A DNA stretch of 64,000 bases, taken from contig CP136062.1 in NCBI GenBank assembly GCA_032622095.1, positions 158,404,875-158,468,874 of the forward strand, written 5' to 3'. A program made the position numbers and the translations under genes. How positions within the stretch are numbered: the first letter of the stretch is position 1; each line of letters begins with the position of its first letter. Shown one piece after another: positions 11,806 through 34,978 of this stretch. Below the pieces are notes generated by a model, which was not told the DNA's origin, did no database searches, and worked only from the letters and a program-made list of their open reading frames with translations. This DNA is from Siphonodentalium dalli. Its lineage: Eukaryota > Mollusca > Scaphopoda > Gadilida > Siphonodentaliidae.

Positions 11806-11902
11806 AAATGACAGACACACTATCACGCTATTTCAAGGCTTGATTGTATAATACATTGTGTTGCTTGAGGCCAGGCATGCACAATGTAGGAACAGACACG
11901 CT

Positions 11903-12263: not shown

Positions 12264-12360
12264 AAATGACAGACACACTATCACACTATTTCAAAGCTTG
12301 ATTGTATAATACATTGTGTTGCTTGAGGCCAGCATGCACAATGTAGGAACAGACAAGCCT

Positions 12361-12426
12361 TTTGTGATGCTATCCCGCACAGCGGGCTAGCATCACCAAA
12401 TTCACCCTCTGGAGACCTCATTCTGC
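12361..12426. repeat. Half palindrome P5
   Basis: Inner hairpin TGATGCTATCCCGC / GCGGGCTAGCATCA plus a full right distal arm with the P1-type stem stretch CTGGAGA, again without the left distal arm. It is the last of the series. The interspersed-repeat units resume after about 12600. Confidence 0.8.
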
Positions 12427-13562
12427 TTAGGCCTCATCTTCTGTGAAGTATCTATAGTATCAAATTTACATTGTTGTTAGTTAAATTTCCCTTCTAGGAA
12501 GTTTCTATATCCCCTAATTTGCAGAAGATAAAATTCATAATTGTGGTGCCCAATGGGTGAATATCACCAACTTCAACTTGGGAACTTAAATATTATCCTT
12601 ATCAGATTGAAAATGGGATCAATAAGTCAAATAAGGGCAGAGCCAGAGACTTAACTATTTCTCTACATAGTAATTCTTAAAATATGTTTGCAAGAACTAG
12701 TTGGCTTATATAGCATGGAATGATCTTCCTTGACTGCAATTCAGATTTTTTCAAATGGGGTCACCTAGTCAAATAGGGGCCAAGCGAAGGACAGTTTCCC
12801 TCTTAGTATGCTTCCTTCACAAGGACCATCAGGTCTATTTTACTGATATTTATGATATGTATGAAGGGTTCTTTGGTGTCTGGGATTCAAATTTATTCAG
12901 ATGGGGTCACCAGGTTAAATAGGGTGGGGCCAGGTACATAACTATATGTCTCTATAGTAATTCTTAAAATGTCTTCTCAAGAGAGGTTGGACTATTTAGC
13001 TTACATACAGTATGGAGGAATCAGGAGGATCCTTTAGTGACTGAGATTCAGATTTGTTAAAATGAGGTCAACCTGTCAAGAAATGGCGGGCTATGGGGAG
13101 TTAACACTTTTGTGTCTAATAAAATCATTGAAATACCAAATTCATTAAAACATCTACCTTGGAACCACCTGACTGATTAGTCTGACATACATGTATTGTG
13201 TTTTGGGTCCATGGATAATTGGGCTTCAAACATGTCTAAATGGTTTTAGAAAAATGCGCTTCTGATATTGGAAATTTCCAATAATTGAGAAAGTTTGAGG
13301 TGTACTTGGGAGTCTGGAGCCCGGTCGGGAGGGGACTTGTTGAGCTGGAGGAGGGGGTGACCAGTAGAGTACAGTTGGTAATTTCAAGGTGATGTTTTCA
13401 CCCATATACATACTTGAAGTCTCTCTAGCCACATATCCTGTTTAAATCTACTTCTTTTAAAGTGATTATAAAAAGTGATGACTGTTGTGGTCTCCAGAGT
13501 CCCAGTCTTATCAGTCGTTGCAGTCTGGTGAGCGACCCCATAGTCATTGGCTGTCTTGTTAT

Positions 13563-13833
13563 AATTATTATAAGTTGTTTTAGAAAACACCTCTATAGGT
13601 AATAAGAGTGGACATTCTGATGTTCATATTGCTAGAAGGTTTGTAAACAACCAGGTTGACGTGTCTTACTACACGCAGAATGACATTTGAGTGATGGAAT
13701 CCGATCCAAAAGAAGATAAATTTACTACCTCCTTTAATGCGAAAGAGTCTGAACATATTGTCATCTTCATCAAAGGCGGTCATATGGTCTTCAGGGTTTG
13801 CGATGTCTTGTTTAAGGTTTGATTTGGAGAGGT
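13563..13833. repeat. Direct repeat, right member (paired with 9513-9988)
   Basis: Matches the outer parts of 9513-9988 with scattered substitutions and lacks that copy's roughly 200-bp insert. A TGT to TGA change interrupts the shared frame. Together the pair brackets the 10.5-13.1 kb repeat block, as if that block had been inserted between two copies of a duplicated segment. Confidence 0.75.
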
Positions 13834-13845
13834 GAGTAGTTAAGG

Positions 13846-16800
13846 GTCATGTCAAGTTCAACCAGCGTTTGTTCCAAAATTACCAACAACTGTTGTGCCA
13901 GACATGAACATTCCAACTGGTGGGTGCCAAAGCTGCGTGGGTTAGACACTTAGACACACCCAAAACACATCATATTCCCTGCCCCTAGTCCAGCGTACTA
14001 GAGATGCAGCTTAGTGCCATCAAGTCTTTTGAATTCCAGTTGTGTATAACTGAGATCTGTTTGCTGTGAACTATTGTCACTTCATCATCATTTTAGAGAT
14101 GCTAAGTCCGATTATAACACCTCCAAACTACTATTTTTCGGCTTCTGTGGTAAACAAAAGTTATATTTGATTCGAGGAACCCAACATTCAAAGATCAGAG
14201 CTACTAGATATCGATTATTGAAGTCTATTTATTTTCTACACCCCATATTCCATATATGGCGATAACCTTAACTGGAATTCCCCAGCACATGTTATCATAA
14301 ATGTTAATAAACATCTTTCACGTGTGATCGCCATGATATTGTACTTGGTTTATGTTGTGCCTAAAAATAACACTGGATCAGGAATAATTGAACAAATGTA
14401 CCCGATCGCCAGCTGTCAAAAGTTGGTGTCGCTTTTGTTTCTGGTAGACACTTTTGTCGGCTTTTTTCCGAAAATCTTTTCCGATCACAACAAAAAGAAA
14501 CATCACATGTCCATATATATCCGTTGGAATTTTTACCAAGTTAATACAAATTCGAGGTGTATAAAATAAATATATTTCGTTAATCGATACGTAATAGCTC
14601 TTAGCTTTGAAGGCGAATGCTTCGACTATAACAAGAAATATGTGTTCACCCCTAATGAGAAGAAATAGTAATGTATGGGTATTAAAAATGCCTAAAAATG
14701 ATCACTGGATCAGGAATAATTAAACAAATGTACCCGATTGCCAGCCGTCAAAATGTAGTGTCGCTTATGTTTCTGGTGAACATTTTCGTCGGCTTTTTTC
14801 TGAGAATCATTTCCGATCACCACTAAAAGAAACATCACATATCCGTATATATTTCCGTTGGAATTTTTACCAAGCTAATAAACATTTGAGGTGTATATAA
14901 TAAATACATTTCATTAAACGGACACCTAATAGCTCTTAGCTTTGAAGGGTGAGTCCTTCGACAATAACAAGAAATATTTGTTCACCCCTAATGAGAAGGA
15001 ATACTAATATAAGGGTACTAAATCTTGCAACGCACCTTTAACCATGACCCATGAGCAAGTTTCACATTATTAACCATATTAACATATCTAACATAGTTAC
15101 CTTCCCACAAATTATTCTAGACATTGATTCATGTCAATGTTTCCCCTATTCCAGAATCAACGAAATATGTTAGTTAAATCTCCCGATGACCATGTTAATT
15201 GCTTCGATTTTCTTCTGGAATTCCCCAGCACGTGTCATAATAAATGTAAATAAACATCTTTCACGTGTGATCGGCATGATATTGTTCTTGGCTTATGTTG
15301 TGCCTCAAATTATCACTGGATCAGGAATAAGCAACAAAATGTACCTGATTGCCAGCTATCAAAAGATAGTTTCGCTTTTGTTTCTGGTAGACATTTTCGT
15401 CGGCTTTTTTCCGAGAATCATTTCCTATCACCACTAAATGAAAATCACATATCCGTATATATTTCCGTTGGAATTTTTACCAAGCTAATAAAACTTTGAG
15501 GTTTATATAATAAATACATTTCATTAATCGGATACGTAATAGATCTTAGCTTTGAAGGGCGAGTCTTTCGACAATAACAAGAAATATTTGTTCACCCCTA
15601 ATGAGAAGGAAAAGTAATATAAGTGTACTAAATCAGACAAAGCATCTTTAACCATGAGCAAGTTTCACATTTTTAACCATATTAACAAATCTAGCATAGT
15701 TACCTTCCCACAAATTATTCTAGACATTGATTCATGTCAATGTCTCCAGATTACAGAATCAAAGAAAGTAGTTAGTTAAATCTCGCGATGATAATGTTGA
15801 TTCCTTCGATTTTTTCTTACTTCTGTTCAAAATTGAGACATAATCGTGGCATGAAAGTTCAATACGGAAAATCATGAAATATTGAGTTAAGGTTGGCGTC
15901 AAGTTCAACCAGCATTCCCAGATTACTAACAAAATTAATGTTGTGCCAAAGTTGGGTGGGTTAGACTCTTTCCAAACACATCATATCCCCATGTCCCTCG
16001 ACCAGCGTACTATGCATGTAGTTTAATGCCAGTATGTGTTTTGAATTCCAGCTGTGATAACTGAGATCTGTATGCTGTGAAATATTTGTCGCTTCATCGT
16101 CATTTTAGAGATACTTAGTCCGATATTATCACCTCCAATTTAATATGTTTCGGGTTCTGTTGTGAAAACACTGAAAAGTCTCATATGAGTGGAGGAACCC
16201 AACATTCAAAGCTCAGAGTTATTATAAATCGATTATTGACATCTATGTAGTTTATTCACCTCAAATTCCACTGGAATTCCCCAGCAATTATCAAAATATA
16301 TGTAAATAATACATATTCACTTGGGATCTTGTACTTGTTTTATAATGTGCCTAAAAATTATCACTGGATCAGGAATAATTGAACAAATGTACCCGATTGC
16401 CAGCCATCAAAAGGTAGTGTCGCTTTTGTTTCTGGTAGACATTTTCGTCGGCTTTTTTCCAACAATCATTTCCGATCACCACTAAATGAAACATCACATA
16501 TCCGTATATATTTCCGTTGGAATTTTTACCAAGCTAATAAATATTTGAGGTGTATATAATAAATACATTTCATTAAACGGATACCTAATAGCTCTTAGCT
16601 TTGAAGGGTGAGTCCTTCGACAATAACAAGAAATATTTGTTCACCCCTAATGAGAAGGAATAGTAATATAAGGGTACTAAATCTTGCAACGCACCTTTAA
16701 CCATGACCCATGAGCAAGTTTCACATTATTAACCATATTAACAAATCTAACATAGTTACCTTCCCACAAATTATTCTAGACATTGATTCATGTCAATGTT

Positions 16801-16862
16801 TCCCCTATTCCAGAATCAACGAAATATGTTAGTTAAATCTCCCGATGACCATGTTAATTGCT
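13846..16862 (+). repeat. Left edge of TSR array: exon-less half-units
   Basis: Array homology begins at about 13846 (GTCATGTCAAGTTCAACCAG). Three half-units without a TSR exon follow. The first (about 13846-14690) is the most diverged. The second (about 14691-15208) ends in TTCGATTTT and jumps at 15209 straight to CTGGAATTCCCCAGC, which removes an exon and roughly 800 bp compared with the unit at 19.3-20.1 kb. The third ends in the recurrent exon-deletion junction near 15815. Hydrophobic frames at 14324-14569 and 15186-15437 fall in these spacers and are not supported as genes. Confidence 0.75.
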
Positions 16863-16873
16863 TCGATTTTCAG

Positions 16874-17044
16874 TGAATGGTAAGTGGACCCCCTGGGCAC
16901 GGTGGAGTCGATGTAACAAAAAATGTGGACGTGGAAGAAGGATCAGGAAAAGACGGTGTACGAACCCCGCCCCACGCTACGGTGGCAGAAGATGTCCAGG
17001 CAAAGCGTTGGTGTCAGGGGTGTGTAACTCCAAACCATGTCCAG
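16874..17044 (+). CDS. TSR exon, array 1 unit 1
   Basis: This 171-bp exon, acceptor GATTTTCAG and donor CCAG|GTAATA, is phase 1-1 and encodes one TSR of 57 residues. The split first codon is G|TG (Val) when joined to a preceding array exon. Trp are at 5, 8 and 11 (W-TP-W-AR-W) and Cys at 14, 18, 29, 41, 51 and 56, the pattern of group-1 TSRs. The B-strand region RRIRKRR (22-28) is a dense basic cluster. The exon has 17 Lys/Arg and no Asp/Glu. CNKKCG lacks the Ser/Thr for O-fucose. Leu46 is coded TTG. I place the start at the acceptor because a stop codon lies in frame 19 bp upstream of it. The frame runs on past the donor to a stop at 17284-17286, which I take as intron. Confidence 0.92.
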
Positions 17045-18235
17045 GTAATATATTACAATACGAATTAATCTTTAAACATATTATGAGAAAGAATCGGGCA
17101 ACAACGATAATTACACATATGTGTTCATTACGGTTCCGTTGTCGTTTGATACCTAAAGTTATTATCCGTTTTCTTATACTCGGTCTGGTTGCGTCGGTTA
17201 CGAGAGCTTCCAAATGTTATTGGTATTACTTCTGTTCACAATTGAGACATAATCGTGGCATGAAAGTTCAATGCGGCAAATCATGAATTATTGAGTTAAG
17301 TTTAACGTCAAGTTCAACCAGCATTCCCAAATTACTAACAAATGTTTTGACAAAGTTGGGTGGATTAGACACCTTCCAAACACATCATATTCCCATGTCC
17401 CTCGACCAGCGTACTGTAAATGTAGTTTAGTGCCAGTAAGTCTTTTGAATTCCAGCTGTGGTAATTGAGATATGTGTGCTGTGAAATATTTGTCGCATCA
17501 TAGAGATACCTAGTCGATTTCATCACCTCCAAATTAACATTTTTCGGGTTCTGTTGAGAAAAGTTTCATTTGAGTCGAGGAACCCAGCATTCAAAGCTCA
17601 GTGCTATTAGATATCGATCGTTGACATCTATGTAGTTTATTCATCTCAAATTCCACTGGAATTCCCCAGCAAGTGTCAAAATAAATGTAAATAAAACATA
17701 TGCATGTGGGATATTGTACTTGTTTTATGATATGCCTAAAAATGATCACTGGATCAGGAATAATTAAACAAATGTACCCGATTACCAGCCATCAAAATGT
17801 AGTGTCGCTTTTGTTTCTGGTAGACATTTTCGTCGGCTTTTTTCCGAGAATCATTTCCTATCACCACTAAATGAAAATCACATATCCGTATATATTTCCG
17901 TTGGAATTTTTTACCAAGCTAATACAACTTTGAGGTTTATATAATAAATACATTTCATTAATCGGATACGTAATAGCTCTTAGCTTTGAAGGGCGAGTCC
18001 TTCGACAATAACAAGAAATATTTGTTCACCCCTAATGAGAAGGAAAAGTAATATAAGTGTACTAAATCAGACAAAGCACCTTTAACCATGACCCATGAGC
18101 AAGTTTCACATTTTTAACCATATTAACAAATCTAGCATAGTTACCTTCCCACAAATTATTCTAGACATTGATTCATGTCAATGTCTCCAGATTACAGAAT
18201 CAAAGAAATAAGTTAGTTAAATCTCGCGATGACAA

Positions 18236-18320
18236 TGTTGATTCCTTCGATTTTTTCTTACTTCTGTTCAAAATTGAGACATAATCGTGGCATGAAAGTT
18301 CAATACGGAAAATCATGAAT
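18236..18320 (+). pseudogene. Exon-deletion junction in half-unit B (representative)
   Basis: Half B keeps the sequence that normally precedes the exon (TCGCGATGACAATGTTGATTC, then CTTCGATTTT) and the sequence found about 185 bp after it (ACTTCTGTTCA, AATTGAGACATAATCGTGGC). The acceptor, the 171-bp exon, the donor and the intervening intron, some 355 bp in all, are gone. The same junction is present in every B half at the positions given under the arrays, so one deletion happened before the 2.45-kb unit was amplified. Confidence 0.85.
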
Positions 18321-19304
18321 TATTGAGTTAAGGTTGGTGTCAAGTTCAACCAGCATTCCCAGATTACTAACAAAATTAATGTTGTGCCAAAGTTGGTGGG
18401 TTAGACTCTTTCCAAACACATCTATCCCCATGTCCCTCGACCAGCGTACTGTGCATGTAGTTTAGTGTGTTTTGAATTCCAGCTGTGATAACTGAGATCT
18501 GTATGCTGTGAAATATTTGTCGCTTCATCGTCATTTTAGAGATACTTAGTCCGATATTATCACCTCCAATTTAATATGTTTCGGGTTCTGTTGTGAAAAC
18601 ACTGAAAAGTATGATATGTGTGGAGGAACCCAACATTCAAAGCTCAGAGTTATTATATATCGATTATTGACATCTATGTAGTTTATTCACCTCAAACTCC
18701 ACTGGAATTCCCCAGCAATTATCAAAATATATGTAAATGATACATATTCACGTGGGATCTTGTACTTGTTTTATAATGTGCCTAAAAATTATCACTGGAT
18801 CAGGAATAATTGAACAAATGTACCCGATTGCCAGCCATCAAAAGGTAGTGTCGCTTTTGTTTCTGGTAGACATTTTCGTCGGCTTTTTTCCGACAATCAT
18901 TTCCGATCACCACTAAATGAAACATCACATATCCGTATATATTTCCGTTGGAATTTTTACCAAGCTAATAACAAGTTGAGGTGTATATAATAAACACATT
19001 TCATTAAACGGACACCTAATAGCTCTTAGCTTTGAAGGGTGAGTCCTTCGACAATAACAAGAAATATTTGTTCACCCCTAATGAGAAGGAATACTAATAT
19101 AAGGGTACTAAATCTTGCAACGCACCTTTAACCATGACCCATGAGCAAGTTTCACATTATTAACCATATTAACATATCTAACATAGTTACCTTCCCACAA
19201 ATTATTCTAGACATTGATTCATGTCAATGTTTCCCCTATTCCAGAATCAACGAAATATGTTAGTTAAATCTCCCGATGACCATGTTAATTGCTTCGATTT
19301 TCAG

Positions 19305-19475
19305 TGAATGGTAAGTGGACCCCCTGGGCACGGTGGAGTCGATGTAACAAAAAATGTGGACGTGGAAGAATGATCAGGAAAAGACGGTGTACGAACCCCG
19401 CCCCACGCTACGGTGGCAGAAGATGTCCAGGCAAAGCGCTGGTGTCAGGGGTGTGTAACTCCAAACCATGTCCAG
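19305..19475 (+). CDS. TSR exon, array 1 unit 2 (Arg23Met)
   Basis: Same 171-bp phase 1-1 exon as unit 1, with all three Trp and six Cys. One replacement is seen: AGG to ATG at codon 23 gives GRGRMIRKRR, which lowers the basic charge of the heparin-site-like cluster by one. Leu46 is coded CTG. The read-through frame after the donor has LVALVTRAS where unit 1 has LVASVTRAS. The unit 4 read-through shares that Leu, and 56474-56644 in the second array shares both the Met and the Leu. These markers tie units 2 and 4 as one subtype in a 4.88-kb alternation. Confidence 0.92.
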
Positions 19476-21754
19476 GTAATATATTACAATACGAATTAAT
19501 CTTTAAACATATTATGAGAAAGAATCGGGCAACAACGATAATTACACATATGTGTTCATTACGGTTCCGTTGTCGTTTGATACCTAAAGTTATTATCCGT
19601 TTTCTTATACTCGGTCTGGTTGCGTTGGTTACGAGAGCTTCCAAATGTTATTGGTATTACTTCTGTTCACAATTGAGACATAATCGTGGCACGAAAGTTC
19701 AATGCGGCAAATCATGAATTATTGAGTTAAGTTTAACGTCAAGTTCAACCAGCATTCCCAAATTACTAACAAATGTTTTGACAAAGTTGGGTGGATTAGA
19801 CACCTTCCAAACACATCATATACCCATGTCCCTCGACCAGCGTACTGTGAATGTAGTTTAGTGCCAGTAAGTCTTTTGAATTCCAGCTGTGATAATTGAG
19901 ATCTGTGTGCTGTGAAATATTTGTCGCATCATCGTCATTTTAGAGATATGTAGTCGATTTCATCACCTCCAAATTAATATGTTTCGGGTTCTGTTGAGAA
20001 ACGTTTCATTTGAGTCGAGGAACCCAACATTCAAAGCTCAGTGCTAATAGATATCGATTATTGACATATATGTAGTTTATTCACCTCCAATTCCACTGGA
20101 ATTCCCCAGCACGTGTCATAATAAATGTAAATAAACATCTTTCACGTGTGATCGGCATGATATTGTTCTTGGCTTATGTTGTGCCTCAAATTATCACTGG
20201 ATCAGGAATAAGCAACAAAATGTACCTGATTGCCAGCTATCAAAAGATAGTTTCGCTTTTGTTTCTGGTAGACATTTTCGTCGGCTTTTTTCCGAGAATC
20301 ATTTCCTATCACCACTAAATGAAAATCACATATCCGTATATATTTCCGTTGGAATTTTTACCAAGCTAATAAAACTTTGAGGTTTATATAATAAATACAT
20401 TTCATTAATCGGATACGTAATAGCTCTTAGCTTTGAAGGGCGAGTCTTTCGACAATAACAAGAAATATTTGTTCACCCCTAATGAGAAGGAAAAGTAATA
20501 TAAGTGTACTAAATCAGACAAAGCACCTTTAACCATGAGCAAGTTTCACATTTTTAACCATATTAACAAATCTAGCATAATTACCTTCCCACAAATTATT
20601 CTAGACATTGATTCATGTCAATGTCTCCAGATTACAGAATCAAAGAAAGTAGTTAGTTAAATCTCGCGATGATAAAGCTGATTCCTTCGATTTTTTCTTA
20701 CTTCTGTTCAAAATTGAGACATAATCGTGGCATGAAAGTTCAATACGGAAAATCATGAACTATTGAGTTAAGGTTGGCGTCAAGTTCAACCAGCATTCCC
20801 AGATTACTAACACAATTAATGTTGTGCCAAAGTTGGGTGGGTTAGACTATGTCCAAACACATCATATCCCCATGTCCCTCGACCAGCGTACTCTGCATGT
20901 AGTTTAATGCCAGTATGTGTTTTGAATTCCAGCTGTGATAACTGAGATCTGTATGCTGTGAAATATTTGTCGCTTCATCGTCATTTTAGAGATACTTAGT
21001 CCGATATTATCACCTCCAATTTAATATGTTTCGGGTTCTGTTGTGAAAACACTGAAAAGTCTCATATGAGTGGAGGAACCCAACATTCAAAGCTCAGAGT
21101 TATTATAAATCGATTATTGACATCTATGTAGTTTATTCACCTCAAATTCCACTGGAATTCCCCAGCAATTATCAAAATATATGTAAATAATACATATTCA
21201 CTTGGGATCTTGTACTTGTTTTATAATGTGCCTAAAAATTATCACTGGATCAGGAATAATTGAACAAATGTACCCGATTGCCAGCCATCAAAAGGTAGTG
21301 TCGCTTTTGTTTCTGGTAGACATTTTCGTCGGCTTTTTTCCAACAATCATTTCCGATCACCACTAAATGAAACATCACATATCCGTATATATTTCCGTTG
21401 GAATTTTTACCAAGCTAATAAATATTTGAGGTGTATATAATAAATACATTTCATTAAACGGATACCTAATAGCTCTTAGCTTTGAAGGGTGAGTCCTTCG
21501 ACAATAACAAGAAATATTTGTTCACCCCTAATGAGAAGGAATAGTAATATAAGGGTACTAAATCTTGCAACGCACCTTTAACCATGACCCATGAGCAAGT
21601 TTCACATTATTAACCATATTAACAAATCTAACATAGTTACCTTCCCACAAATTATTCTAGACATTGATTCATGTCAATGTTTCCCCTATTCCAGAATCAA
21701 CGAAATATGTTAGTTAAATCTCCCGATGACCATGTTAATTGCTTCGATTTTCAG

Positions 21755-21925
21755 TGAATGGTAAGTGGACCCCCTGGGCACGGTGGAGTCGATGTAACAA
21801 AAAATGTGGACGTGGAAGAAGAATCAGGAAAAGACGGTGTACGAACCCCGCCCCACGCTACGGTGGCAGAAGATGTCCAGGCAAAGCGTTGGTGTCAGGG
21901 GTGTGTAACTCCAAACCATGTCCAG
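21755..21925 (+). CDS. TSR exon, array 1 unit 3
   Basis: Complete TSR exon with the same protein sequence as unit 1. The only exon difference noticed is AGG to AGA at Arg23, which is silent. Leu46 is TTG. The flanking intron matches unit 1 rather than its nearest neighbours: both have a shortened GCATCATAGAGATACC stretch downstream and TTACCAGCC further on. Its position (4881 bp after unit 1) has no equivalent in the second array, where 58924 falls in exon-less DNA. Confidence 0.92.
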
Positions 21926-24186
21926 GTAATATATTACAATACGAATTAATCTTTAAACATATTATGAGAAAGAATCGGGCAACAACGATAATTACACATA
22001 TGTGTTCATTACGGTTCCGTTGTCGTTTGATACCTAAAGTTATTATCCGTTTTCTTATACTCGGTCTGGTTGCGTCGGTTACGAGAGCTTCCAAATGTTA
22101 TTGGTATTACTTCTGTTCACAATTGAGACATAATCGTGGCATGAAAGTTCAATGCGGCAAATCATGAATTATTGAGTTAAGTTTAACGTCAAGTTCAACC
22201 AGCATTCCCAAATTACTAACAAATGTTTTGACAAAGTTGGGTGGATTAGACACCTTCCAAACACATCATATTCCCATGTCCCTCGACCAGCGTACTGTGA
22301 ATGTAGTTTAGTGCCAGTAAGTCTTTTGAATTCCAGCTGTGGTAATTGAGATATGTGTGCTGTGAAATATTTGTCGCATCATAGAGATACCTAGTCGATT
22401 TCATCACCTCCAAATTAACATTTTTCGGGTTCTGTTGAGAAAAGTTTCATTTGAGTCGAGGAACCCAGCATTCAAAGCTCAGTGCTATTAGATATCGATC
22501 GTTGACATCTATGTAGTTTATTCATCTCAAATTCCACTGGAATTCCCCAGCAAGTGTCAAAATAAATGTAAATAAAACATATGCATGTGGGATATTGTAC
22601 TTGTTTTATGATATGCCTAAAAATGATCACTGGATCAGGAATAATTAAACAAATGTACCCGATTACCAGCCATCAAAATGTAGTGTCGCTTTTGTTTCTG
22701 GTAGACATTTTCGTCGGCTTTTTTCCGAGAATCATTTCCTATCACCACTAAATGAAAATCACATATCCGTATATATTTCCGTTGGAATTTTTTACCAAGC
22801 TAATACAACTTTGAGGTTTATATAATAAATACATTTCATTAATCGGATACGTAATAGCTCTTAGCTTTGAAGGGCGAGTCCTTCGACAATAACAAGAAAT
22901 ATTTGTTCACCCCTAATGAGAAGGAAAAGTAATATAAGTGTACTAAATCAGACAAAGCACCTTTAACCATGACCCATGAGCAAGTTTCACATTTTTAACC
23001 ATATTAACAAATCTAGCATAGTTACCTTCCCACAAATTATTCTAGACATTGATTCATGTCAATGTCTCCAGATTACAGAATCAAAGAAATAAGTTAGTTA
23101 AATCTCGCGATGACAATGTTGATTCCTTCGATTTTTTCTTACTTCTGTTCAAAATTGAGACATAATCGTGGCATGAAAGTTCAATACGGAAAATCATGAA
23201 TTATTGAGTTAAGGTTGGTGTCAAGTTCAACCAGCATTCCCAGATTACTAACAAAATTAATGTTGTGCCAAAGTTGGGTGGGTTAGACTCTTTCCAAACA
23301 CATCTATCCCCATGTCCCTCGACCAGCGTACTGTGCATGTAGTTTAGTGTGTTTTGAATTCCAGCTGTGATAACTGAGATCTGTATGCTGTGAAATATTT
23401 GTCGCTTCATCGTCATTTTAGAGATACTTAGTCCGATATTATCACCTCCAATTTAATATGTTTCGGGTTCTGTTGTGAAAACACTGAAAAGTATGATATG
23501 TGTGGAGGAACCCAACATTCAAAGCTCAGAGTTATTATATATCGATTATTGACATCTATGTAGTTTATTCACCTCAAACTCCACTGGAATTCCCCAGCAA
23601 TTATCAAAATATATGTAAATGATACATATTCACGTGGGATCTTGTACTTGTTTTATAATGTGCCTAAAAATTATCACTGGATCAGGAATAATTGAACAAA
23701 TGTACCCGATTGCCAGCCATCAAAAGGTAGTGTCGCTTTTGTTTCTGGTAGACATTTTCGTCGGCTTTTTTCCGACAATCATTTCCGATCACCACTAAAT
23801 GAAACATCACATATCCGTATATATTTCCGTTGGAATTTTTACCAAGCTAATAACAAGTTGAGGTGTATATAATAAATACATTTCATTAAACGGACACCTA
23901 ATAGCTCTTAGCTTTGAAGGGTGAGTCCTTCGACAATAACAAGAAATATTTGTTCACCCCTAATGAGAAGGAATACTAATATAAGGGTACTAAATCTTGC
24001 AACGCACCTTTAACCATGACCCATGAGCAAGTTTCACATTATTAACCATATTAACATATCTAACATAGTTACCTTCCCACAAATTATTCTAGACATTGAT
24101 TCATGTCAATGTTTCCCCTATTCCAGAATCAACGAAATATGTTAGTTAAATCTCCCGATGACCATGTTAATTGCTTCGATTTTCAG

Positions 24187-24357
24187 TGAATGGTAAGTGG
24201 ACCCCCTGGGCACGGTGGAGTCGATGTAACAAAAAATGTGGACGTGGAAGAAGGATCAGGAAAAGACGGTGTACGAACCCCGCCCCACGCTACGGTGGCA
24301 GAAGATGTCCAGGCAAAGCGCTGGTGTCAGGGGTGTGTAACTCCAAACCATGTCCAG
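24187..24357 (+). CDS. TSR exon, array 1 unit 4
   Basis: Complete TSR exon, Trp 5/8/11 and six Cys intact, Arg23 retained (AGG). Leu46 is CTG and the read-through marker is LVALVTR, like unit 2. The intron marker TATACCCATG about 340 bp downstream is also shared only with unit 2 and its 56474 counterpart. So units 3-4 look like a copy of units 1-2, apart from the Met23 change private to the unit 2 lineage. Splice sites are the same as in unit 1. Confidence 0.92.
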
Positions 24358-26636
24358 GTAATATATTACAATACGAATTAATCTTTAAACATATTATGAG
24401 AAAGAATCGGGCAACAACGATAATTACACATATGTGTTCATTACGGTTCCGTTGTCGTTTGATACCTAAAGTTATTATCCGTTTTCTTATACTCGGTCTG
24501 GTTGCGTTGGTTACGAGAGCTTCCAAATGTTATTGGTATTACTTCTGTTCACAATTGAGACATAATCGTGGCATGAAAGTTCAATGCGGCAAATCATGAA
24601 TTATTGAGTTAAGTTTAACGTCAAGTTCAACCAGCATTCCCAAATTACTAACAAATGTTTTGACAAAGTTGGGTCGATTAGACACCTTCCAAACACATCA
24701 TATACCCATGTCCCTCGACCAGCGTACTGTGAATGTAGTTTAGTGCCAGTAAGTCTTTTGAATTCCAGCTGTGATAATTGAGATCTGTGTGCTGTGAAAT
24801 ATTTGTCGCATCATCGTCATTTTAGAGATATGTAGTCGATTTCATCACCTCCAAATTAATATGTTTCGGGTTCTGTTGAGAAACGTTTCATTTGAGTCGA
24901 GGAACCCAACATTCAAAGCTCAGTGCTAATAGATATCGATTATTGACATATATGTAGTTTATTCACCTCCAATTCCACTGGAATTCCCCAGCACGTGTCA
25001 TAATAAATGTAAATAAACATCTTTCACGTGTGATCGGCATGATATTGTTCTTGGCTTATGTTGTGCCTCAAATTATCACTGGATCAGGAATAAGCAACAA
25101 AATGTACCTGATTGCCAGCTATCAAAAGATAGTTTCGCTTTTGTTTCTGGTAGACATTTTCGTCGGCTTTTTTCCGAGAATCATTTCCTATCACCACTAA
25201 ATGAAAATCACATATCCGTATATATTTCCGTTGGAATTTTTACCAAGCTAATAAAACTTTGAGGTTTATATAATAAATACATTTCATTAATCGGATACGT
25301 AATAGCTCTTAGCTTTGAAGGGCGAGTCTTTCGACAATAACAAGAAATATTTGTTCACCCCTAATGAGAAGGAAAAGTAATATAAGTGTACTAAATCAGA
25401 CAAAGCACCTTTAACCATGAGCAAGTTTCACATTTTTAACCATATTAACAAATCTAGCATAGTTACCTTCCCACATATTATTCTAGACATTGATTCATGT
25501 CAATGTCTCCAGATTACAGAATCAAAGAAAGTAGTTAGTTAAATCTCGCGATGATAAAGCTGATTCCTTCGATTTTTTCTTACTTCTGTTCAAAATTGAG
25601 ACATAATCGTGGCATGAAAGTTCAATACGGAAAATCATGAACTATTGAGTTAAGGTTGGCGTCAAGTTCAACCAGCATTCCCAGATTACTAACACAATTA
25701 ATGTTGTGCCAAAGTTGGGTGGGTTAGACTATGTCCAAACACATCATATCCCCATGTCCCTCGACCAGCGTACTCTGCATGTAGTTTAATGCCAGTATGT
25801 GTTTTGAATTCCAGCTGTGATAACTGAGATCTGTATGCTGTGAAATATTTGTCGCTTCATCGTCATTTTAGAGATACTTAGTCCGATATTATCACCTCCA
25901 ATTTAATATGTTTCGGGTTCTGTTGTGAAAACACTGAAAAGTCTCATATGAGTGGAGGAACCCAACATTCAAAGCTCAGAGTTATTATAAATCGATTATT
26001 GACATCTATGTAGTTTATTCACCTCAAATTCCACAGGAATTCCCTAGCAATTATCAAAATATATGTAAATAATACATATTCACTTGGGATCTTGTACTTG
26101 TTTTATAATGTGCCTAAAAATTATCACTGGATCAGGAATAATTGAACAAATGTACCCGATTGCCAGCCATCAAAAGGTAGTGTCGCTTTTGTTTCTGGTA
26201 GACATTTTCGTCGGCTTTTTTCCAACAATCATTTCCGATCACCACTAAATGAAACATCACATATCCGTATATATTTCCGTTGGAATTTTTACCAAGCTAA
26301 TAACAATTTGAGGTGTATATAATAAATACATTTCATTAAACGGACACCTAATAGCTCTTAGCTTTGAAGGGTGAGTCCTTCGACAATAACAAGAAATATT
26401 TGTTCACCCCTAATGAGAAGGAATACTAATATAAGGGTACTAAATCTTGCAACGCACCTTTAACCATGACCCATGAGCAAGTTTCACATTATTAACCATA
26501 TTAACATATCTAACATAGTTACCTTCCCACAAATTATTCTAGACATTGATTCAGGTCAATGTTTCCCCTATTCCAGAATCAACGAAATATGTTAGTTAAA
26601 TCTCCCGATGACCATGTTAATTGCTTCGATTTTCAG

Positions 26637-26807
26637 TGAATGGTAAGTGGACCCCCTGGGCACGGTGGAGTCGATGTAACAAAAAATGTGGACGTGGAAG
26701 AAGGATCAGGAAAAGACGGTGTACGAACCCCGCCCCACGCTACGGTGGCAGAAGATGTCCAGGCAAAGCGCTGGTGTCAGGGGTGTGTAACTCCAAACCA
26801 TGTCCAG
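26637..26807 (+). CDS. TSR exon, array 1 unit 5
   Basis: Complete TSR exon with the consensus protein, Leu46 CTG, and the LVASVTR read-through marker. Its upstream half carries two private variants shared with unit 6: GATTCAGGTCAATG (for GATTCATGTCAATG) about 85 bp before the exon, and CCACAGGAATTCCCTAGC about 600 bp before it. These show that units 5 and 6 come from the most recent single-unit duplication in this array. Confidence 0.92.
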
Positions 26808-29086
26808 GTAATATATTACAATACGAATTAATCTTTAAACATATTATGAGAAAGAATCGGGCAACAACGATAATTACACATATGTGTTCATTACGGTTCC
26901 GTTGTCGTTTGATACCTAAAGTTATTATCCGTTTTCTTATACTCGGTCTGGTTGCGTCGGTTACGAGAGCTTCCAAATGTTATTGGTATTACTTCTGTTC
27001 ACAATTGAGACATAATCGTGGCATGAAAGTTCAATGCGGCAAATCATGAATTATTGAGTTAAGTTTAACGTCAAGTTCAACCAGCATTCCCAAATTACTA
27101 ACAAATGTTTTGACAAAGTTGGGTGGATTAGACACCTTCCAAACACATCATATTCCCATGTCCCTCGACCAGCGTACTGTGAATGTAGTTTAGTGCCAGT
27201 AAGTCTTTTGAATTCCAGCTGTGATAATTGAGATCTGTGTGCTGTGAAATATTTGTCGCATCATCGTCATTTTAGAGATATGTAGTCGATTTCATCACCT
27301 CCAAATTAATATGTTTCGGGTTCTGTTGAGAAACGTTTCATTTGAGTCGAGGAACCCAACATTCAAAGCTCAGTGCTAATAGATATCGATTATTGACATA
27401 TATGTAGTTTATTCACCTCCAATTCCACTGGAATTCCCCAGCACGTGTCATAATAAATGTAAATAAACATCTTTCACGTGTGATCGGCATGATATTGTTC
27501 TTGGCTTATGTTGTGCCTCAAATTATCACTGGATCAGGAATAAGCAACAAAATGTACCTGATTGCCAGCTATCAAAAGATAGTTTCGCTTTTGTTTCTGG
27601 TAGACATTTTCGTCGGCTTTTTTCCGAGAATCATTTCCTATCACCACTAAATGAAAATCACATATCCGTATATATTTCCGTTGGAATTTTTACCAAGCTA
27701 ATAAAACTTTGAGGTTTATATAATAAATACATTTCATTAATCGGATACGTAATAGCTCTTAGCTTTGAAGGGCGAGTCTTTCGACAATAACAAGAAATAT
27801 TTGTTCACCCCTAATGAGAAGGAAAAGTAATATAAGTGTACTAAATCAGACAAAGCACCTTTAACCATGAGCAAGTTTCACATTTTTAACCATATTAACA
27901 AATCTAGCATAGTTACCTTCCCACATATTATTCTAGACATTGATTCATGTCAATGTCTCCAGATTACAGAATCAAAGAAAGTAGTTAGTTAAATCTCGCG
28001 ATGATAAAGCTGATTCCTTCGATTTTTTCTTACTTCTGTTCAAAATTGAGACATAATCGTGGCATGAAAGTTCAATACGGAAAATCATGAACTATTGAGT
28101 TAAGGTTGGCGTCAAGTTCAACCAGCATTCCCAGATTACTAACACAATTAATGTTGTGCCAAAGTTGGGTGGGTTAGACTATGTCCAAACACATCATATC
28201 CCCATGTCCCTCGACCAGCGTACTCTGCATGTAGTTTAATGCCAGTATGTGTTTTGAATTCCAGCTGTGATAACTGAGATCTGTATGCTGTGAAATATTT
28301 GTCGCTTCATCGTCATTTTAGAGATACTTAGTCCGATATTATCACCTCCAATTTAATATGTTTCGGGTTCTGTTGTGAAAACACTGAAAAGTCTCATATG
28401 AGTGGAGGAACCCAACATTCAAAGCTCAGAGTTATTATAAATCGATTATTGACATCTATGTAGTTTATTCACCTCAAATTCCACAGGAATTCCCTAGCAA
28501 TTATCAAAATATATGTAAATAATACATATTCACTTGGGATCTTGTACTTGTTTTATAATGTGCCTAAAAATTATCACTGGATCAGGAATAATTGAACAAA
28601 TGTACCCGATTGCCAGCCATCAAAAGGTAGTGTCGCTTTTGTTTCTGGTAGACATTTTCGTCGGCTTTTTTCCAACAATCATTTCCGATCACCACTAAAT
28701 GAAACATCACATATCCGTATATATTTCCGTTGGAATTTTTACCAAGCTAATAACAATTTGAGGTGTATATAATAAATACATTTCATTAAACGGACACCTA
28801 ATAGCTCTTAGCTTTGAAGGGTGAGTCCTTCGACAATAACAAGAAATATTTGTTCACCCCTAATGAGAAGGAATACTAATATAAGGGTACTAAATCTTGC
28901 AACGCACCTTTAACCATGACCCATGAGCAAGTTTCACATTATTAACCATATTAACATATCTAACATAGTTACCTTCCCACAAATTATTCTAGACATTGAT
29001 TCAGGTCAATGTTTCCCCTATTCCAGAATCAACGAAATATGTTAGTTAAATCTCCCGATGACCATGTTAATTGCTTCGATTTTCAG

Positions 29087-29257
29087 TGAATGGTAAGTGG
29101 ACCCCCTGGGCACGGTGGAGTCGATGTAACAAAAAATGTGGACGTGGAAGAAGGATCAGGAAAAGACGGTGTACGAACCCCGCCCCACGCTACGGTGGCA
29201 GAAGATGTCCAGGCAAAGCGCTGGTGTCAGGGGTGTGTAACTCCAAACCATGTCCAG
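29087..29257 (+). CDS. TSR exon, array 1 unit 6
   Basis: Complete TSR exon that appears identical to unit 5, including the upstream GATTCAGGTCAATG and CCACAGGAATTCCCTAGC variants, exactly 2450 bp downstream. The intron after it begins to diverge from unit 5 (GTGTTTCGGG for ATGTTTCGGG, CCATTTCCAC for CCAATTCCAC, CACGTTTCAT for CACGTGTCAT). So the duplicated block ends within this intron. Confidence 0.92.
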
Positions 29258-31536
29258 GTAATATATTACAATACGAATTAATCTTTAAACATATTATGAG
29301 AAAGAATCGGGCAACAACGATAATTACACATATGTGTTCATTACGGTTCCGTTGTCGTTTGATACCTAAAGTTATTATCCGTTTTCTTATACTCGGTCTG
29401 GTTGCGTCGGTTACGAGAGCTTCCAAATGTTATTGGTATTACTTCTGTTCACAATTGAGACATAATCGTGGCATGAAAGTTCAATGCGGCAAATCATGAA
29501 TTATTGAGTTAAGTTTAACGTCAAGTTCAACCAGCATTCCCAAATTACTAACAAATGTTTTGACAAAGTTGGGTGGATTAGACACCTTCCAAACACATCA
29601 TATTCCCATGTCCCTCGACCAGCGTACTGTGAATGTAGTTTAGTGCCAGTAAGTCTTTTGAATTCCAGCTGTGATAATTGAGATCTGTGTGCTGTGAAAT
29701 ATTTGTCGCATCATCGTCATTTTAGAGATATGTAGTCGATTTCATCACCTCCAAATTAATGTGTTTCGGGTTCTGTTGAGAAACGTTTCATTTGAGTCGA
29801 GGAACCCAACATTCAAAGCTCAGTGCTAATATATATCGATTATTGACATATATGTAGTTTATTCACCTCCATTTCCACTGGAATTCCCCAGCACGTTTCA
29901 TAATAAATGTAAATAAACATCTTTCACGTGTGATCGGCATGATATTGTTCTTGGCTTATGTTGTGCCTCAAATTATCACTGGATCAGGAATAAGCAACAA
30001 AATGTACCTGATTGCCAGCTATCAACAGATAGTTTCGCTTTTGTTTCTGGTAGACATTTTCGTCGGCTTTTTTCCGAGAATCATTTCCTATCACCACTAA
30101 ATGAAAATCACATATCCGTTTATATTTCCGTTGGAATTTTTACCAAGCTAATAAAACTTTGAGGTTTATATAATAAATACATTTCATTAATCGGATACGT
30201 AATAGCTCTTAGCTTTGAAGGGCGAGTCTTTCGACAATAACAAGAAATATTTGTTCACCCCTAATGAGAAGGAAAAGTAATATAAGTGTACTAAATCAGA
30301 CAAAGCACCTTTAACCATGAGCAAGTTTCACATTTTTAACCATATTAACAAATCTAGCATAGTTACCTTCCCACAAATTATTCTAGACATTGATTCATGT
30401 CAATGTCTCCAGATTACAGAATCAAAGAAAGTAGTTAGTTAAATCTCGCGATGATAATGCTGATTCCTTCGATTTTTTCTTACTTCTGTTCAAAATTGAG
30501 ACATAATCGTGGCATGAAAGTTCAATACGGAAAATCATGAAATATTGAGTTAAGGTTGGCGTCAAGTTCAACCAGCATTCCCAGATTACTAACAAAATTA
30601 ATGTTGTGCCAAAGTTGGGTGGGTTAGACTATGTCCAAACACATCATATCCCCATGTCCCTCGACCAGCGTACTCTGCATGTAGTTTAATGCCAGTATGT
30701 GTTTTGAATTCCAGCTGTGATAACTGAGATCTGTATGCTGTGAAATATTTGTCGCTTCATCGTCATTTTAGAGATACTTAGTCCGATATTATCACCTCCA
30801 ATTTAATATGTTTCGGGTTCTGTTGTGAAAACACTGAAAAGTCTCATATGAGTGGAGGAACCCAACATTCAAAGCTCAGAGTTATTATAAATCGATTATT
30901 GACATCTATGTAGTTTATTCACCTCAAATTCCACTGGAATTCCCCAGCAATTATCAAAATATATGTAAATAATACATATTCACTTGGGATCTTGTACTTG
31001 TTTTATAATGTGCCTAAAAATTATCACTGGATCAGGAATAATTGAACAAATGTACCCGATTGCCAGCCATCAAAAGGTAGTGTCGCTTTCGTTTCTGGTA
31101 GACATTTTCGTCGGCTTTTTTCCAACAATCATTTCCGATCACCACTAAATGAAACATCACATATCCGTATATATTTCCGTTGGAATTTTTACCAAGCTAA
31201 TAAATATTTGAGGTGTATATAATAAATACATTTCATTAAACGGATACCTAATAGCTCTTAGCTTTGAAGGGTGAGTCCTTCGACAATAACAAGAAATATT
31301 TGTTCACCCCTAATGAGAAGGAATAGTAATATAAGGGTACTAAATCTTGCAACGCACCTTTAACCATGACCCATGAGCAAGTTTCACATTATTAACCATA
31401 TTAACAAATCTAACATAGTTACCTTCCCACAAATTATTCTAGACATTGATTCATGTCAATGTTTCCCCTATTCCAGAATCAACGAAATATGTTAGTTAAA
31501 TCTCCCGATGACCATGTTAATTGCTTCGATTTTCAG

Positions 31537-31707
31537 TGAATGGTAAGTGGACCCCCTGGGCACGGTGGAGTCGATGTAACAAAAAATGTGGACGTGGAAG
31601 AAGGATCAGGAAAAGACGGTGTACGAACCCCGCCCCACGCTACGGTGGCAGAAGATGTCCAGGCAAAGCGTTGGTGTCAGGGGTGTGTAACTCCAAACCA
31701 TGTGCAG
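31537..31707 (+). CDS. TSR exon, array 1 unit 7 (last, Pro57Ala)
   Basis: Complete TSR exon. Up to Cys56 it follows the consensus (Leu46 TTG), but it ends KPCA instead of KPCP (CCA to GCA at the last full codon), as in the exon at 37083-37253. The donor is still GTAATA, but the intron then departs from all other units after about 10 bp (ATATCACATTGG), and the read-through frame stops after 17 codons. The right edge of the tandem array therefore lies at or just inside the 3' end of this exon. Confidence 0.92.
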
Positions 31708-31990
31708 GTAATATATCACATTGGCAAACATTATTATTATATGCAATTTGATGAAGAAGCCTAAAATTGGTCTCGGTTTTATTACACCGTGGTCCAGATC
31801 TGTAGATTAAAAGAGGTCATTTGTGGCATTGTCCCATTTCATGTCCATGTCATAAAACATGGTAATCGTTATCGGCTTTTTTTCGATCATTGCAAGTCAT
31901 GGACATTTTTTTCCTATGGCTTTGCCAGAAACATGACTATATGAGCGTATATGAGCGTATATGACCAAGGACACGGTCGCATGCGAAATT

Positions 31991-32365
31991 GGACCCGATT
32001 TGACCTTGAATTGACCATTTTTAAGGTCACGGTCAGGTCGGGGTCATGATTTGGCCCGTCCAAAACACTCCCCGGACAAAAGTTAACTTGGGTATCAAAT
32101 TTCGTAGAAATCCGCCAGTTTTACCCGATTTGACCTTGAATTGACCATTTTGAAGGTCAATGTCAGGTCTTGGTCACGATCTGACCCGTCCGGACAAAAG
32201 TACGCCTAGGTATCAAATTTCAATGAAATCCGCCAGTTGTATCCGATTTAACCTTGAATTGACCATTTTGAAGGTCAAGGTCAGGTAGGGTCACGATTTG
32301 ACTCGTCCAAAACACTCACCGGTTAAAAGTATCCCTAGGTATAAAATTTTGTCGAAATCCTCCAG
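31991..32365. repeat. Three-copy tandem repeat, 118-130 bp unit
   Basis: Units start near 31993, 32123 and 32241, each with CCGATTTGACCTTGAATTGA, then AAGGTCAAGGTCAGGT, GTCACGATTTGACCCGTCC and AATCCGCCAGTT. Repeats rich in GACCTT/AAGGTC are widespread in mollusc genomes as far as I recall. AGGTCA-like half-sites are frequent here but probably incidental. Confidence 0.8.
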
Positions 32366-32439
32366 TTTTATATTGTAGATTTTAAATACTAAGCTACATC
32401 TTGAACTAACAAGGACGTGTAAAGGTAGCGCTTGAAAAA

Positions 32440-32760
32440 CAGCATGTATTATGTGATTGGTCTGCCCATCCTCTGTCTGGCGACCATCTGTCCGTTCGTT
32501 AGCAATTTTGGTTTCCGGATGATGACTTTAGTTTCGTTTATTTTATCGGAACTAAATTTGGTGTGTGAGTTTTCTAAACCAAATTTCAGACCAGGTTCGA
32601 ATTTAGGTTCGTTTGGTTGTTCTTTGCTGACTTATGGCTCTTTTCGACTTAGAATTTTCAATATATAAGTTACCGAATGATACTTTTAGCTTGGTTTATG
32701 TTACACGAACCAAATTTTAAGTTTTCCAGACCAAAATACACTGTCAAGTTCAAACATTGG
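32440..32760. repeat. Probable dispersed repeat, internally duplicated
   Basis: TCCGTTCGTTAGCAATTTTG is followed by GATGACTTTAGTTTCGTTTA and GTTTTCTAAACCAAATTTCA. A diverged second copy (ACTTTTAGCTTGGTTTATG, GTTTTCCAGACCAAAATAC) begins about 200 bp later. The 78-codon frame 32432-32668 lies inside it and has no recognisable domain. Confidence 0.4.
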
Positions 32761-33196
32761 TTTGATCCGAATATGTATACTATGGCTGTTCGTAAATGTA
32801 CAACAAATCCTATTACCATACCTTGTTTTTATATGTCCATTTGACTTAGAAAATTCAGCGTCCGCCTATAGTAACATTTTCAATACTACACTTTAGTGTC
32901 ACTGCCATTTTTTGTTTTTGTACAGTTCATAAAAGACACCGGGCGTATTTTTCCACGCTCTTGTTTTAGTTTCATAGGGATTCGGGATTCCACAACATTG
33001 CCACTAAAATTCCCGAACAGAATTCCGAACACTAAATTTTCTTTAAAACTCTTTAAAACTTACCACACAATGACGGCCACTTTTTCGTTCAAATGCCGGC
33101 CAATTTGCGATCAAACCCCGTCCAATTGAATCCTTCCCGATTCCGGCATATTTAATATAGTTACATTCTCATAGTAAAAGCTCCCGATGAAAAAAT

Positions 33197-33219
33197 GTGT
33201 AAATCGTAACCATGTCCAG
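33197..33219 (+). pseudogene. Remnant of a TSR exon 3' end
   Basis: GTGTAAATCGTAACCATGTC then CAG matches the last 23 bases of TSR exons (residues ACKSKPCP), with one change. It is preceded at once by CTCCCGATGA, the motif that lies about 55 bp upstream of intact exons, so most of the exon was deleted. The donor position reads AT instead of GT, so it could not splice. Confidence 0.6.
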
Positions 33220-34978
33220 ATATTATTTTACACAAATAATATGTAGTCTGAATCAGGCTTTAGCCAGTGCTACTTGCTAAAGCAGCTTTTTGAAAATCTG
33301 AATATTCCAGAGAGATCTATATCTTCAAACCAATGGAATCAATTTGAGCAAATAGAACACATAACTGTTGAAAGCGTTGGTCTATTAGACACCTTTTTTC
33401 ATGATGAAAGACGACATAAAATTATTACGAATAGCTATTTTAATCGAATTTTTTTCTCATGGTCCGAAAACATTTTTGGAAAAGTGACGACCACGTGACT
33501 GTTGCTTGTCGCTCGCAGTGATTAAGTTGTACTTAATTATGCTGTGTCGTCATAGCTTAGCGCTTTGTTTTATTGTTTATGTGGGTTTTTTTTTGCAAGA
33601 TTATCCTGTTTCACGACGACAAATGATATGATTACCACTATTGTATAGAACTAACCCCACATGGTGATACAAATTTCAGGACATAACCTCAGAGTCATCT
33701 CCCCCAATCAGGAGCTGAAAAACTATTTGTGAGTTTTGTTGAAAATTCTAAACAGTAATCCTAACAATGGATAGGGAAGAACGACAATGAATAGAAAGAA
33801 CACAAATTCTGGTCCCCTAGTACCCTCTTCGTAATAATTATATGTTGTCGTTCATTACCCAAAAGGTTTATATTGTGTCGTACAGAATAGTGTTGGCGCA
33901 ATTTGACAGACTGCTATGAAAATAATCCTTCCTGGTGTCAAAATAAAATCAATTTTCCTCACCAAAATAAATATACACCAGTTAGTGCACTGCATGCCAA
34001 TATCAGCTTCCACTTGTCTGTGTTCAACCAACTCAAGTAATGACTTGTCTCGTAATTTAGCCTCACAAATTATAACCCTTGACTTGCAACATTAACACTA
34101 GTTCCGGATATTGTTATTGGCGTCTCCCAAGGGCATACTTCGGAGTACGGCTTTGGCCATACCAATATGGCAAAGGTGAATGATATCCTTCTAAATGCAT
34201 TGATCAGGACCAGGCACCATCACTGCCCAATGCATTTCCGATAAGTTCAGCTCCAATGTTAGCAATCCTGCCATTCCTGATATGCCCAATTAACTTATTA
34301 AGAGTATTGGAACAACTAATTGATCATAATTTTTGAGCAGTACACGTAGTTATGATAAGTTGCTTCATATTGCGTGCATACATGTATGCACTTTCCAATA
34401 TATAGCTGCATAGGCCTATTCCTCATTTATGTGCCATGGCTATGAACTGCCGGGAAAGTGCATGGGCTAAATGTGTACGTGGTATTGATGTGCGGATGTT
34501 TGTAATTTTAGTTGTTAAGATGCATGTATCGCCAACCGTAGAAATGTCACTCACAAGTGCCAAATTCAGTCATTCCGGTATAGGCTATAGCATTTTTGCA
34601 ACCAGCCTGCATGCCGCATTAATTGCAATGTACATGCAATTTGGTGGAGGATTTAGTTGAGCAAACTTCTCATTACTTCGGAAGTGATACCCGATTTCAT
34701 GTTCTCCACATTCCATGTGCTGTCAGCCAATGCTAAGATGGTGGATGCACATGTACTTTTCAGATATTATCGTACACTGCTGAAGTTAGACAATATATTT
34801 CCGGGAAAAAGCCTGGTTAATAATCATGACATTTTAACTTTGAAGTAAATATTCCGAGTTCGAAACTTGCACATTGTCACAGTTTCACGACCGATATCAG
34901 AATACAGAGTGCGTGTTACATTGAACCTACACAATAAACCAACAGAGACCAGCAACTATGTCGACTGTTCTCTAAGTA

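Follow-up and report, generated by a model that had tools for sequence, protein, structure and literature searches.

A nested tandem array of thrombospondin type 1 repeat exons in the scaphopod Siphonodentalium dalli, a probable coding-exon megasatellite

Organization of the exon array

The DNA considered here is a stretch of 64,000 nucleotides (the window) from the scaphopod Siphonodentalium dalli, located on the forward strand at C2:158404875-158468874 (contig CP136062.1 of assembly GCA_032622095.1, which comprises 2.23 Gb in 9 contigs). It contains a tandem array of near-identical exons that each encode one thrombospondin type 1 repeat (TSR). For its analysis, 186 kb beyond the window were added from the genome, resulting in a stretch of 250 kb in total. 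The TSR exons are referred to by type (A, B, C and so on), and the larger repeats that contain them as cassettes a to f, of which cassette d holds the array listed here.

15215..31720, + strand: periodic part of the array in cassette d, with seven units of A-type TSR exons (self-comparison, exon list, interval matrix)
16874..17044, + strand: A exon 1, 171 bp, phase 1-1, Leu46 codon TTG (TSP_1 Pfam match)
19305..19475, + strand: A exon 2, R23M, Leu46 codon CTG (exon list)
21755..21925, + strand: A exon 3, Leu46 codon TTG (exon list)
24187..24357, + strand: A exon 4, Leu46 codon CTG (exon list)
26637..26807, + strand: A exon 5, Leu46 codon CTG, mosaic tail with GATTCAGGTC upstream (exon list, diagnostic columns)
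29087..29257, + strand: A exon 6, Leu46 codon CTG, mosaic tail with GATTCAGGTC upstream (exon list, diagnostic columns)
31537..31707, + strand: A exon 7, P57A, Leu46 codon TTG; the similarity between units stops 13 bp 3' of it (self-comparison, exon list)
13838..15212, + strand: exon-less intron blocks at the left edge of the array, 78-97% identical to the unit intron (self-comparison)

A preliminary description of this DNA had reported seven 171-bp phase 1-1 TSR exons in an array spanning 13846..31718. The seven exons are indeed present at 16874-31707, but the span has to be divided into the periodic part at 15215-31720 and the preceding 13838-15212, which consists of intron blocks without exons. 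From start to start, the exons are spaced by 2431, 2450, 2432, 2450, 2450 and 2450 bp, in agreement with the periods given before. All seven have 57 codons, an AG acceptor and a GT donor, and they differ pairwise by 0-3 nt. Two of the markers that had been pointed out to distinguish the units were found again, namely the silent Leu46 codon (TTG, CTG, TTG, CTG, CTG, CTG, TTG for exons 1-7) and the Ser/Leu marker in the read-through (S, L, S, L, S, S for exons 1-6).

The introns had also been described as being as similar as the exons, and this holds at both scales that were compared. In the seven window units, variable sites number 4 of 171 in the exons and 38 of 1421 in the upstream introns; the corresponding values for the 28 units of cassettes a-e are 8/171 and 74/1350 (gap columns excluded in each case). 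The introns of the A array are thus about as variable as its exons, as expected of recent copying of whole units.

The 37-kb cassettes

The array is itself part of a larger repeat, which goes beyond the preliminary description. Positions 1-21751 of the window match 37172-58910 at 99.55% identity, and this 37.17-kb repeat places four further A exons in the window, at 54043-62511. The cassette of about 37 kb comprises ten TSR exons in d, and the window covers d and most of e.

1..37171, + strand: one period of the 37-kb cassette d, from B exon to B exon with an offset of 89 bp; the next period runs from 37172 (self-comparison)
8210..8380, + strand: C-type TSR exon, phase 1-1 (exon list, Pfam)
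36473..36643, + strand: D-type TSR exon with TGA at 36502-36504, splice sites intact (exon reading)
37083..37253, + strand: B-type TSR exon, phase 1-1; the B exon of the preceding cassette ends at window position 82 (Pfam)
45379..45549, + strand: C exon of cassette e (exon list)
54043..54213, + strand: A exon 1 of cassette e (exon list)
56474..56644, + strand: A exon 2 of cassette e (exon list)
58910..59053, + strand: deletion scar in cassette e, leaving an intron of 3246 bp (cassette comparison)
59891..60061, + strand: A exon 3 of cassette e (exon list)
62341..62511, + strand: A exon 4 of cassette e; the fifth lies just beyond the window (exon list)

The cassettes form a tandem run of a (partial), b (37,668 bp), c (37,552 bp), d (37,171 bp) and e (33,214 bp), with the exon order C, A exons, D, B. 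Mismatch amounts to 0.21% between b and c, to 0.63% between c and d and likewise between d and e, and to 1.06% between b and e. The cassettes are further distinguished by insertions or deletions of 56 bp in b alone, of about 470 bp that separate b and c from d and e, and of 3.9 kb in e alone. The latter is a deletion, in which 142 bp are found where d has 4047 bp, so that 3.9 kb and two A exons were lost. A sixth array, f, is located at 158.770-158.781 Mb, 311 kb from e. The numbers of A exons in cassettes a-f of this one genome are 2, 7, 7, 7, 5 and at least 5; all genome-wide counts of A exons, including that of f, are lower bounds, with 150 of 1608 candidates scored. Cassette f is 99.97-100% identical to e at three loci (about 9.25 kb compared), except for the first 268 bp of one of them, which would mean either a very recent copy or an assembly fault. 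When the region from C2:158768788 onward is aligned to 158458-158469 kb, the shift between matching exons rises from 311 to 327 kb, which leaves about 16 kb that differ in between.

Further A exons were found at 158.028-158.043 Mb, three of them intact and three with a 1-nt insertion, and a similar exon, accompanied by part of the intron, was located around C2:214.01 and 214.06 Mb. Each of the two cassettes in the window moreover contains a 457-bp tandem repeat with 94% matches and inverted internal parts (11446-12599 and 48615-49768).

Interval classes and exchange between units

A comparison of 26 exon-to-exon intervals resolves two classes, alpha with 2260-2263 bp and beta with 2279 bp, apart from one beta interval of 3246 bp. 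The distances are 0.09-1.11% within alpha and 0.09-1.45% within beta, and 2.40-3.60% (mean 3.2%) between the classes. Ordered classes that are more alike within than between, as in a higher-order repeat, are therefore found at this locus. Cassettes b and c alternate strictly (alpha-beta-alpha-beta-alpha-beta), whereas d (alpha-beta-alpha-beta-beta-beta) and e (alpha-beta-beta-alpha) do not. The alternating 4.88-kb pair that had been proposed for units 1-4 corresponds to the alpha-beta-alpha-beta start of d.

For units 5 and 6, single-unit duplications had been suggested. The intervals between exons 4 and 5 (d4-5) and between exons 5 and 6 (d5-6) are indeed only 0.13% apart, but a plain duplication does not describe them, as the interval that was doubled is a mosaic. 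At the diagnostic columns (91, of which 36 are indels) both intervals have the beta state everywhere but in an 'aaba' tail, which lies 292-333 bp 5' of the exon and is common to b5-6, c5-6, e2-3 and e4-5. In addition, the window contains GATTCAGGTC exactly twice, 89 bp 5' of exon 5 (26548) and 89 bp 5' of exon 6 (28998), where 0.10 occurrences would be expected by chance. It also occurs in the intervals a1-2, b5-6, b6-7, c5-6 and c6-7 and is absent from d6-7 and from all four intervals of e. Outside d, the tail and GATTCAGGTC are found together only in b5-6 and c5-6. The simplest account of these patterns would be that a beta interval was exchanged with an interval like b5-6 and that the product was then doubled.

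Mosaic intervals of this kind argue for exchange between units, which goes beyond plain duplication and beyond what could be deduced from the geometry of the array. The preliminary description had attributed a gain and loss of domains to unequal crossing-over. The differing A-exon counts of the cassettes and the mosaics bear out the gain and loss, but as sequence evidence the mosaics leave crossing-over and gene conversion undistinguished.

The intron blocks

Each interval between A exons consists of two adjoining blocks of about 1.04 kb, which are about 88% identical to each other.

17226..18254, + strand: first intron block, X, about 88% identical to X' (self-comparison)
18258..19301, + strand: second intron block, X', ending at the acceptor of exon 2 (self-comparison)
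17501..18085, + strand: decayed dispersed foldback element in the intron block, similar to a miniature inverted-repeat transposable element (MITE) (inverted ends, dispersed relatives)

The related K-type exon repeats each 1.30-1.31 kb with a single intron block at 158.017-158.024 Mb (related unit 1308 bp), and the A and K units align at 91.5% across the first 745 bp and at 85% thereafter. Given the one versus two blocks and this alignment, the A unit looks like a K-type unit with an extra exon-less block. The stretch of about 585 bp inside the block has relatives of 65-87% identity in both orientations on C1, C2, C3, C5, C6, C7, C8 and C9, and its inverted arms at 17574-17615 and 17965-18006 are 76% identical. 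Dispersed pieces with inverted ends suggest that the intron block carries along a decayed element, which we read as MITE-like. Strand folding of this element gave nothing unusual (z -0.78), despite the inverted ends seen in its sequence.

The encoded domain

The A exon is recognized by the Pfam model TSP_1 (PF00090) with 39.2 bits (unit 1), the C exon with 39.4 and the B exon with 50.9, at a cut-off of 21.6. In two A exons, one B exon and one C exon that were aligned, C14, C18, C29, C41, C51 and C56 as well as W5, W8 and W11 are invariant. A profile search of the Protein Data Bank (PDB) with four window exons returned thrombospondin-1 and properdin among 39 distinct sequences at E <=0.001. AlphaFold2 models reached a predicted local distance difference test score of 81.6 at best, and the other four 39-49. 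With the best model only, Foldseek gave three matches at E <=0.001, the TSRs of thrombospondin-1 first and then two TSR proteins, with root-mean-square deviations of mostly 2.2-4.6.

We take the A-type TSR to belong to group 1. It shares with group-1 TSRs, such as those of thrombospondin-1, properdin and UNC5, the six cysteines, the three tryptophans and the 57-residue module, and these proteins provide the best PDB matches by sequence or fold. It differs from them by its charge and by occurring in many near-identical copies without a fucose site; the usual O-fucose motif, C-x-x-S/T-C-x-x-G, was not found in A by a motif scan. The number of Lys+Arg is 17 in most A exons and 16 in two variants, and Asp and Glu are absent. 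Other types of the locus have 16-21 Lys+Arg (K), 10-12 (G, B and C) or 6-8 (H, near the downstream end). In Semaphorin-5A, basic residues of TSR4 form a site for sulphated glycans (glycosaminoglycans) (PMC10978931).

A probable coding-exon megasatellite and its alternatives

By its anatomy, the locus fits the coding-exon megasatellites: tandem units consist of whole domain exons with their introns, the introns are as alike as the exons, and the 171-bp A exons are symmetric. We think that it is probably a megasatellite of the LPA, DMBT1 and NBPF kind, built from a very basic group-1 TSR and kept in flux by exchange between units, be it unequal crossing-over or gene conversion. A single-domain phase 1-1 TSR exon would have been copied together with its intron at nested levels, from the block of about 1.04 kb and the 2.43/2.45-kb unit to the 4.88-kb pair, the ten-exon cassette of about 37 kb and a copy 311 kb away. 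As the sequences show, exons are added, removed and homogenised by exchange between units, of one kind or the other, and by at least one deletion, after which an intron of unusual size remained. As the exons are symmetric, the reading frame survives a change in exon number. The preliminary description had stated that this comes at no cost to the frame, and the 57 codons and the phase 1-1 agree with it, but the statement needs a caveat, as the D exon carries a TGA in every cassette seen. The product would be a long secreted or surface protein, or several of them, composed mostly of TSRs. Copy number would set the count of modules with 17 Lys+Arg and hence the avidity for polyanions, for example sulphated glycans. 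Selection would then act on the overall number and charge of the modules and not on single copies, so individual copies could drift and die.

Several observations weigh against this interpretation, and most of them concern selection and the state of the exons. The A exons show 8 changes among the 28 units of cassettes a-e, 5 of them protein-altering and 3 silent, compared with about 3 altering changes per silent one if change were random (all possible single changes in an A exon amount to 361 altering, 123 silent and 29 stop). Purifying selection within the array was thus sought among these units and not seen. Exons that vary like their introns show no visible selection on this short time scale, and it is for this reason that we infer the use of the A exons instead of observing it. 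The avidity that repeated basic A modules may confer is likewise deduced from charge and homology.

A longer time scale is covered by the comparison of TSR types, for which the ratio omega of nonsynonymous (dN) to synonymous (dS) divergence was estimated in 55 pairs; these pairs are not independent, and the values are rough, as there are 57 codons and exons are shared among pairs. At dS >=0.5, 35 of 38 pairs have omega <=0.6 (range 0.20-0.72), which points to long-term coding constraint on the diverged exon types and which we count in favor of the megasatellite of coding exons. At dS <0.5, only 5 of 17 pairs reach omega <=0.6 and 4 of 17 exceed 1. The A exon itself has an omega of 0.30 with C, but of 1.10 with B, 1.20 with G1, 0.99 with J3 and 0.66-1.40 with the K types (K9 1.27, Kx 1.40).

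Damaged exons also weigh against the megasatellite of coding exons. The D exon has an in-frame TGA at the position of the third Trp in all five copies read, and the sixth is listed with one TGA. The frame of D is otherwise open, and the splice sites of the five copies read are intact. A transcript with D in it would therefore stop at this codon. Its relative G1 (158485575) has an open frame with Trp at this position, and the divergence between the two (dN 0.08, dS 0.26) suggests that D was probably coding until recently. Three of the six A exons of the 158.03-Mb group, those at 158.037-158.042 Mb, contain the 1-nt insertion, the J2 exons lack the AG acceptor in three of three cases (AA instead), and the 2.66/7.45-kb family contains 18 shortened TSR matches. 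A signal peptide, a first exon or a last exon was not found, although no systematic search was made.

These observations would be readily understood if a former TSR gene region was amplifying as a megasatellite with dead or dying exons as passengers that are no longer usefully spliced. We regard this as possible, though doubtful. To the missing array-scale selection, the TGA in six of six D copies and the damage in the 158.037-158.042 Mb, J2 and shortened exons, it can add the exon-less blocks and the K exons, in which the third TSR cysteine is lost and another one gained elsewhere. On the other hand, 36 of the 39 A exons near 158 Mb are open, including 33 of 33 in cassettes a-f. This says little, because fewer than 0.5 stops are expected from 8 changes. 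Also against it are the splice sites, six cysteines and three tryptophans that are kept in A, B and C, as well as the low omega of most diverged pairs and the recent coding state suggested for D. AG/GT splice sites were found in 53 of 53 matches of 58 residues in the 250-kb stretch.

It is less likely, and in our view unlikely, that the cassettes are separate genes in tandem, or that D serves as an alternative end, so that a short protein with about seven A modules is made and gene number varies. Every cassette does repeat C, A exons, D and B, and the D stop directly follows the A array. However, only TSR exons of the symmetric 1-1 kind were recognized, and with ten open reading frames scanned against Pfam neither an initial nor a terminal exon showed up. 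In comparison with older neighboring segments, the matches listed (up to 60 per segment) are to TSR exons with flanking sequence, to intron blocks, to a minisatellite and to near-identical DNA. With this coverage, the absence of initial and terminal exons is weakly supported.

That the repeats are in part an assembly artefact, with alleles or read overlaps joined end to end, appears improbable. The near-identity of f and e over about 9.25 kb and the difference of just 0.21% between b and c would agree with it, but the cassettes are distinct in sequence (up to 1.06%, b-e), in indels and in exon number, and neither the window nor the 250-kb stretch contains an N. Five tandem cassettes cannot be two alleles, and with the differences that each of them has, a simple haplotype duplication behind the 37-kb repeat is ruled out.

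The D stop at the end of the array could also be a switch between a short and a giant product that is passed by skipping of D or by RNA recoding, in combination with a module number that varies extremely between individuals through exchange at four or more nested levels. A candidate for such recoding would be A-to-I editing, by which UGA becomes UGG and the conserved Trp is restored, but we consider this scenario very improbable. Least credible is a Dscam-like array in which splicing selects one of several interchangeable exons, for although tandem symmetric exons with separate introns would suit it, symmetric 1-1 exons can all be joined, and the seven window exons, with 0-3 nt differences, are no diverged alternatives but encode nearly the same peptide, so that mutually exclusive splicing was judged unlikely and a choice would change almost nothing.

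Relation to known systems

Compared with known arrays, the coding-exon megasatellite proposed here has its closest counterparts in human genes. One survey describes 23 human arrays that lie wholly within genes, with domain exons in the units, including LPA and DMBT1 (2.9 kb x 13) (PMC2588610). The KIV-2 array of LPA has 5.6 kb per unit, 1 to about 40 units and the synonymous subtypes KIV-2A/B/C, and a paper in its reference list mentions in the title that exons as well as introns are highly conserved (PMC11462820). Tandem units of whole domain exons with introns and silent subtypes are thus common to both loci. The kringle is encoded by two exons per domain, however, no nested cassette is described in the passages on LPA that were considered, and the variation proven for LPA is between people, that seen here between the cassettes of one assembly. 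DMBT1 alleles have 7-21 SRCR domains, a short isoform binds bacteria 30-40% less than a longer one, and in one cell-line model most transcripts matched the genomic SRCR number (PMC9038570). The DMBT1 array also lies within a gene and has a domain exon per unit; it differs by the SRCR domain, and a nested cassette is not described for it in the parts considered. In human NBPF, coding units form higher-order repeats as well, with monomers of about 1.6 kb in 3mers (Olduvai triplets), compared with alternating pairs and TSR domains here.

A literature search by title and start of abstract, with partial coverage, did not find a TSR tandem-exon locus of this kind. The coding megasatellites found in print (LPA, DMBT1 and NBPF) are human and hard to sequence, and the locus would be an independent example among animals, built from another domain and with more nested levels. 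It is notable for these levels and for the intermediate states that are visible within one genome, namely a one-block unit, a pair in strict alternation, a mosaic interval and a deletion of two exons. Frozen side by side, such states make the locus a good place to read array growth and decay. Provided that it is both expressed and variable, the locus would offer a natural series that links domain number to binding strength.

Further TSR exons and other features

Seven open reading frames without TSRs gave no Pfam match above the cut-off (ten scanned of 191 with at least 45 amino acids, three of them with TSRs). Below the cut-off were ECSIT_N (E 0.074) and zf-RVT (E 0.088), the latter in a 181-codon open frame on the minus strand at window 1505-2047, possibly a remnant of a long interspersed nuclear element. 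A 31-residue TSR piece lies on the opposite (minus) strand within the J-type repeats, near 158307772 and 158312497.

Downstream, D/B-like exons recur each 604-615 bp with short introns at C2:158485575-158487409, and the alignment of the 615-bp D/B-like unit to the A unit is limited to the exon and 10 bp. Two shortened TSRs per unit are found in a 7.45-kb tandem array at C2:158517563-158550000, which follows a 2.63-2.66-kb version and reaches the end of the 250-kb stretch. On another contig, further TSR exon arrays occur at C6:43191873-43196621 and 43235902-43238732, with spacings of about 1.26 kb and 498 bp, and tandem amplification of TSR exons is therefore not confined to the C2 locus.

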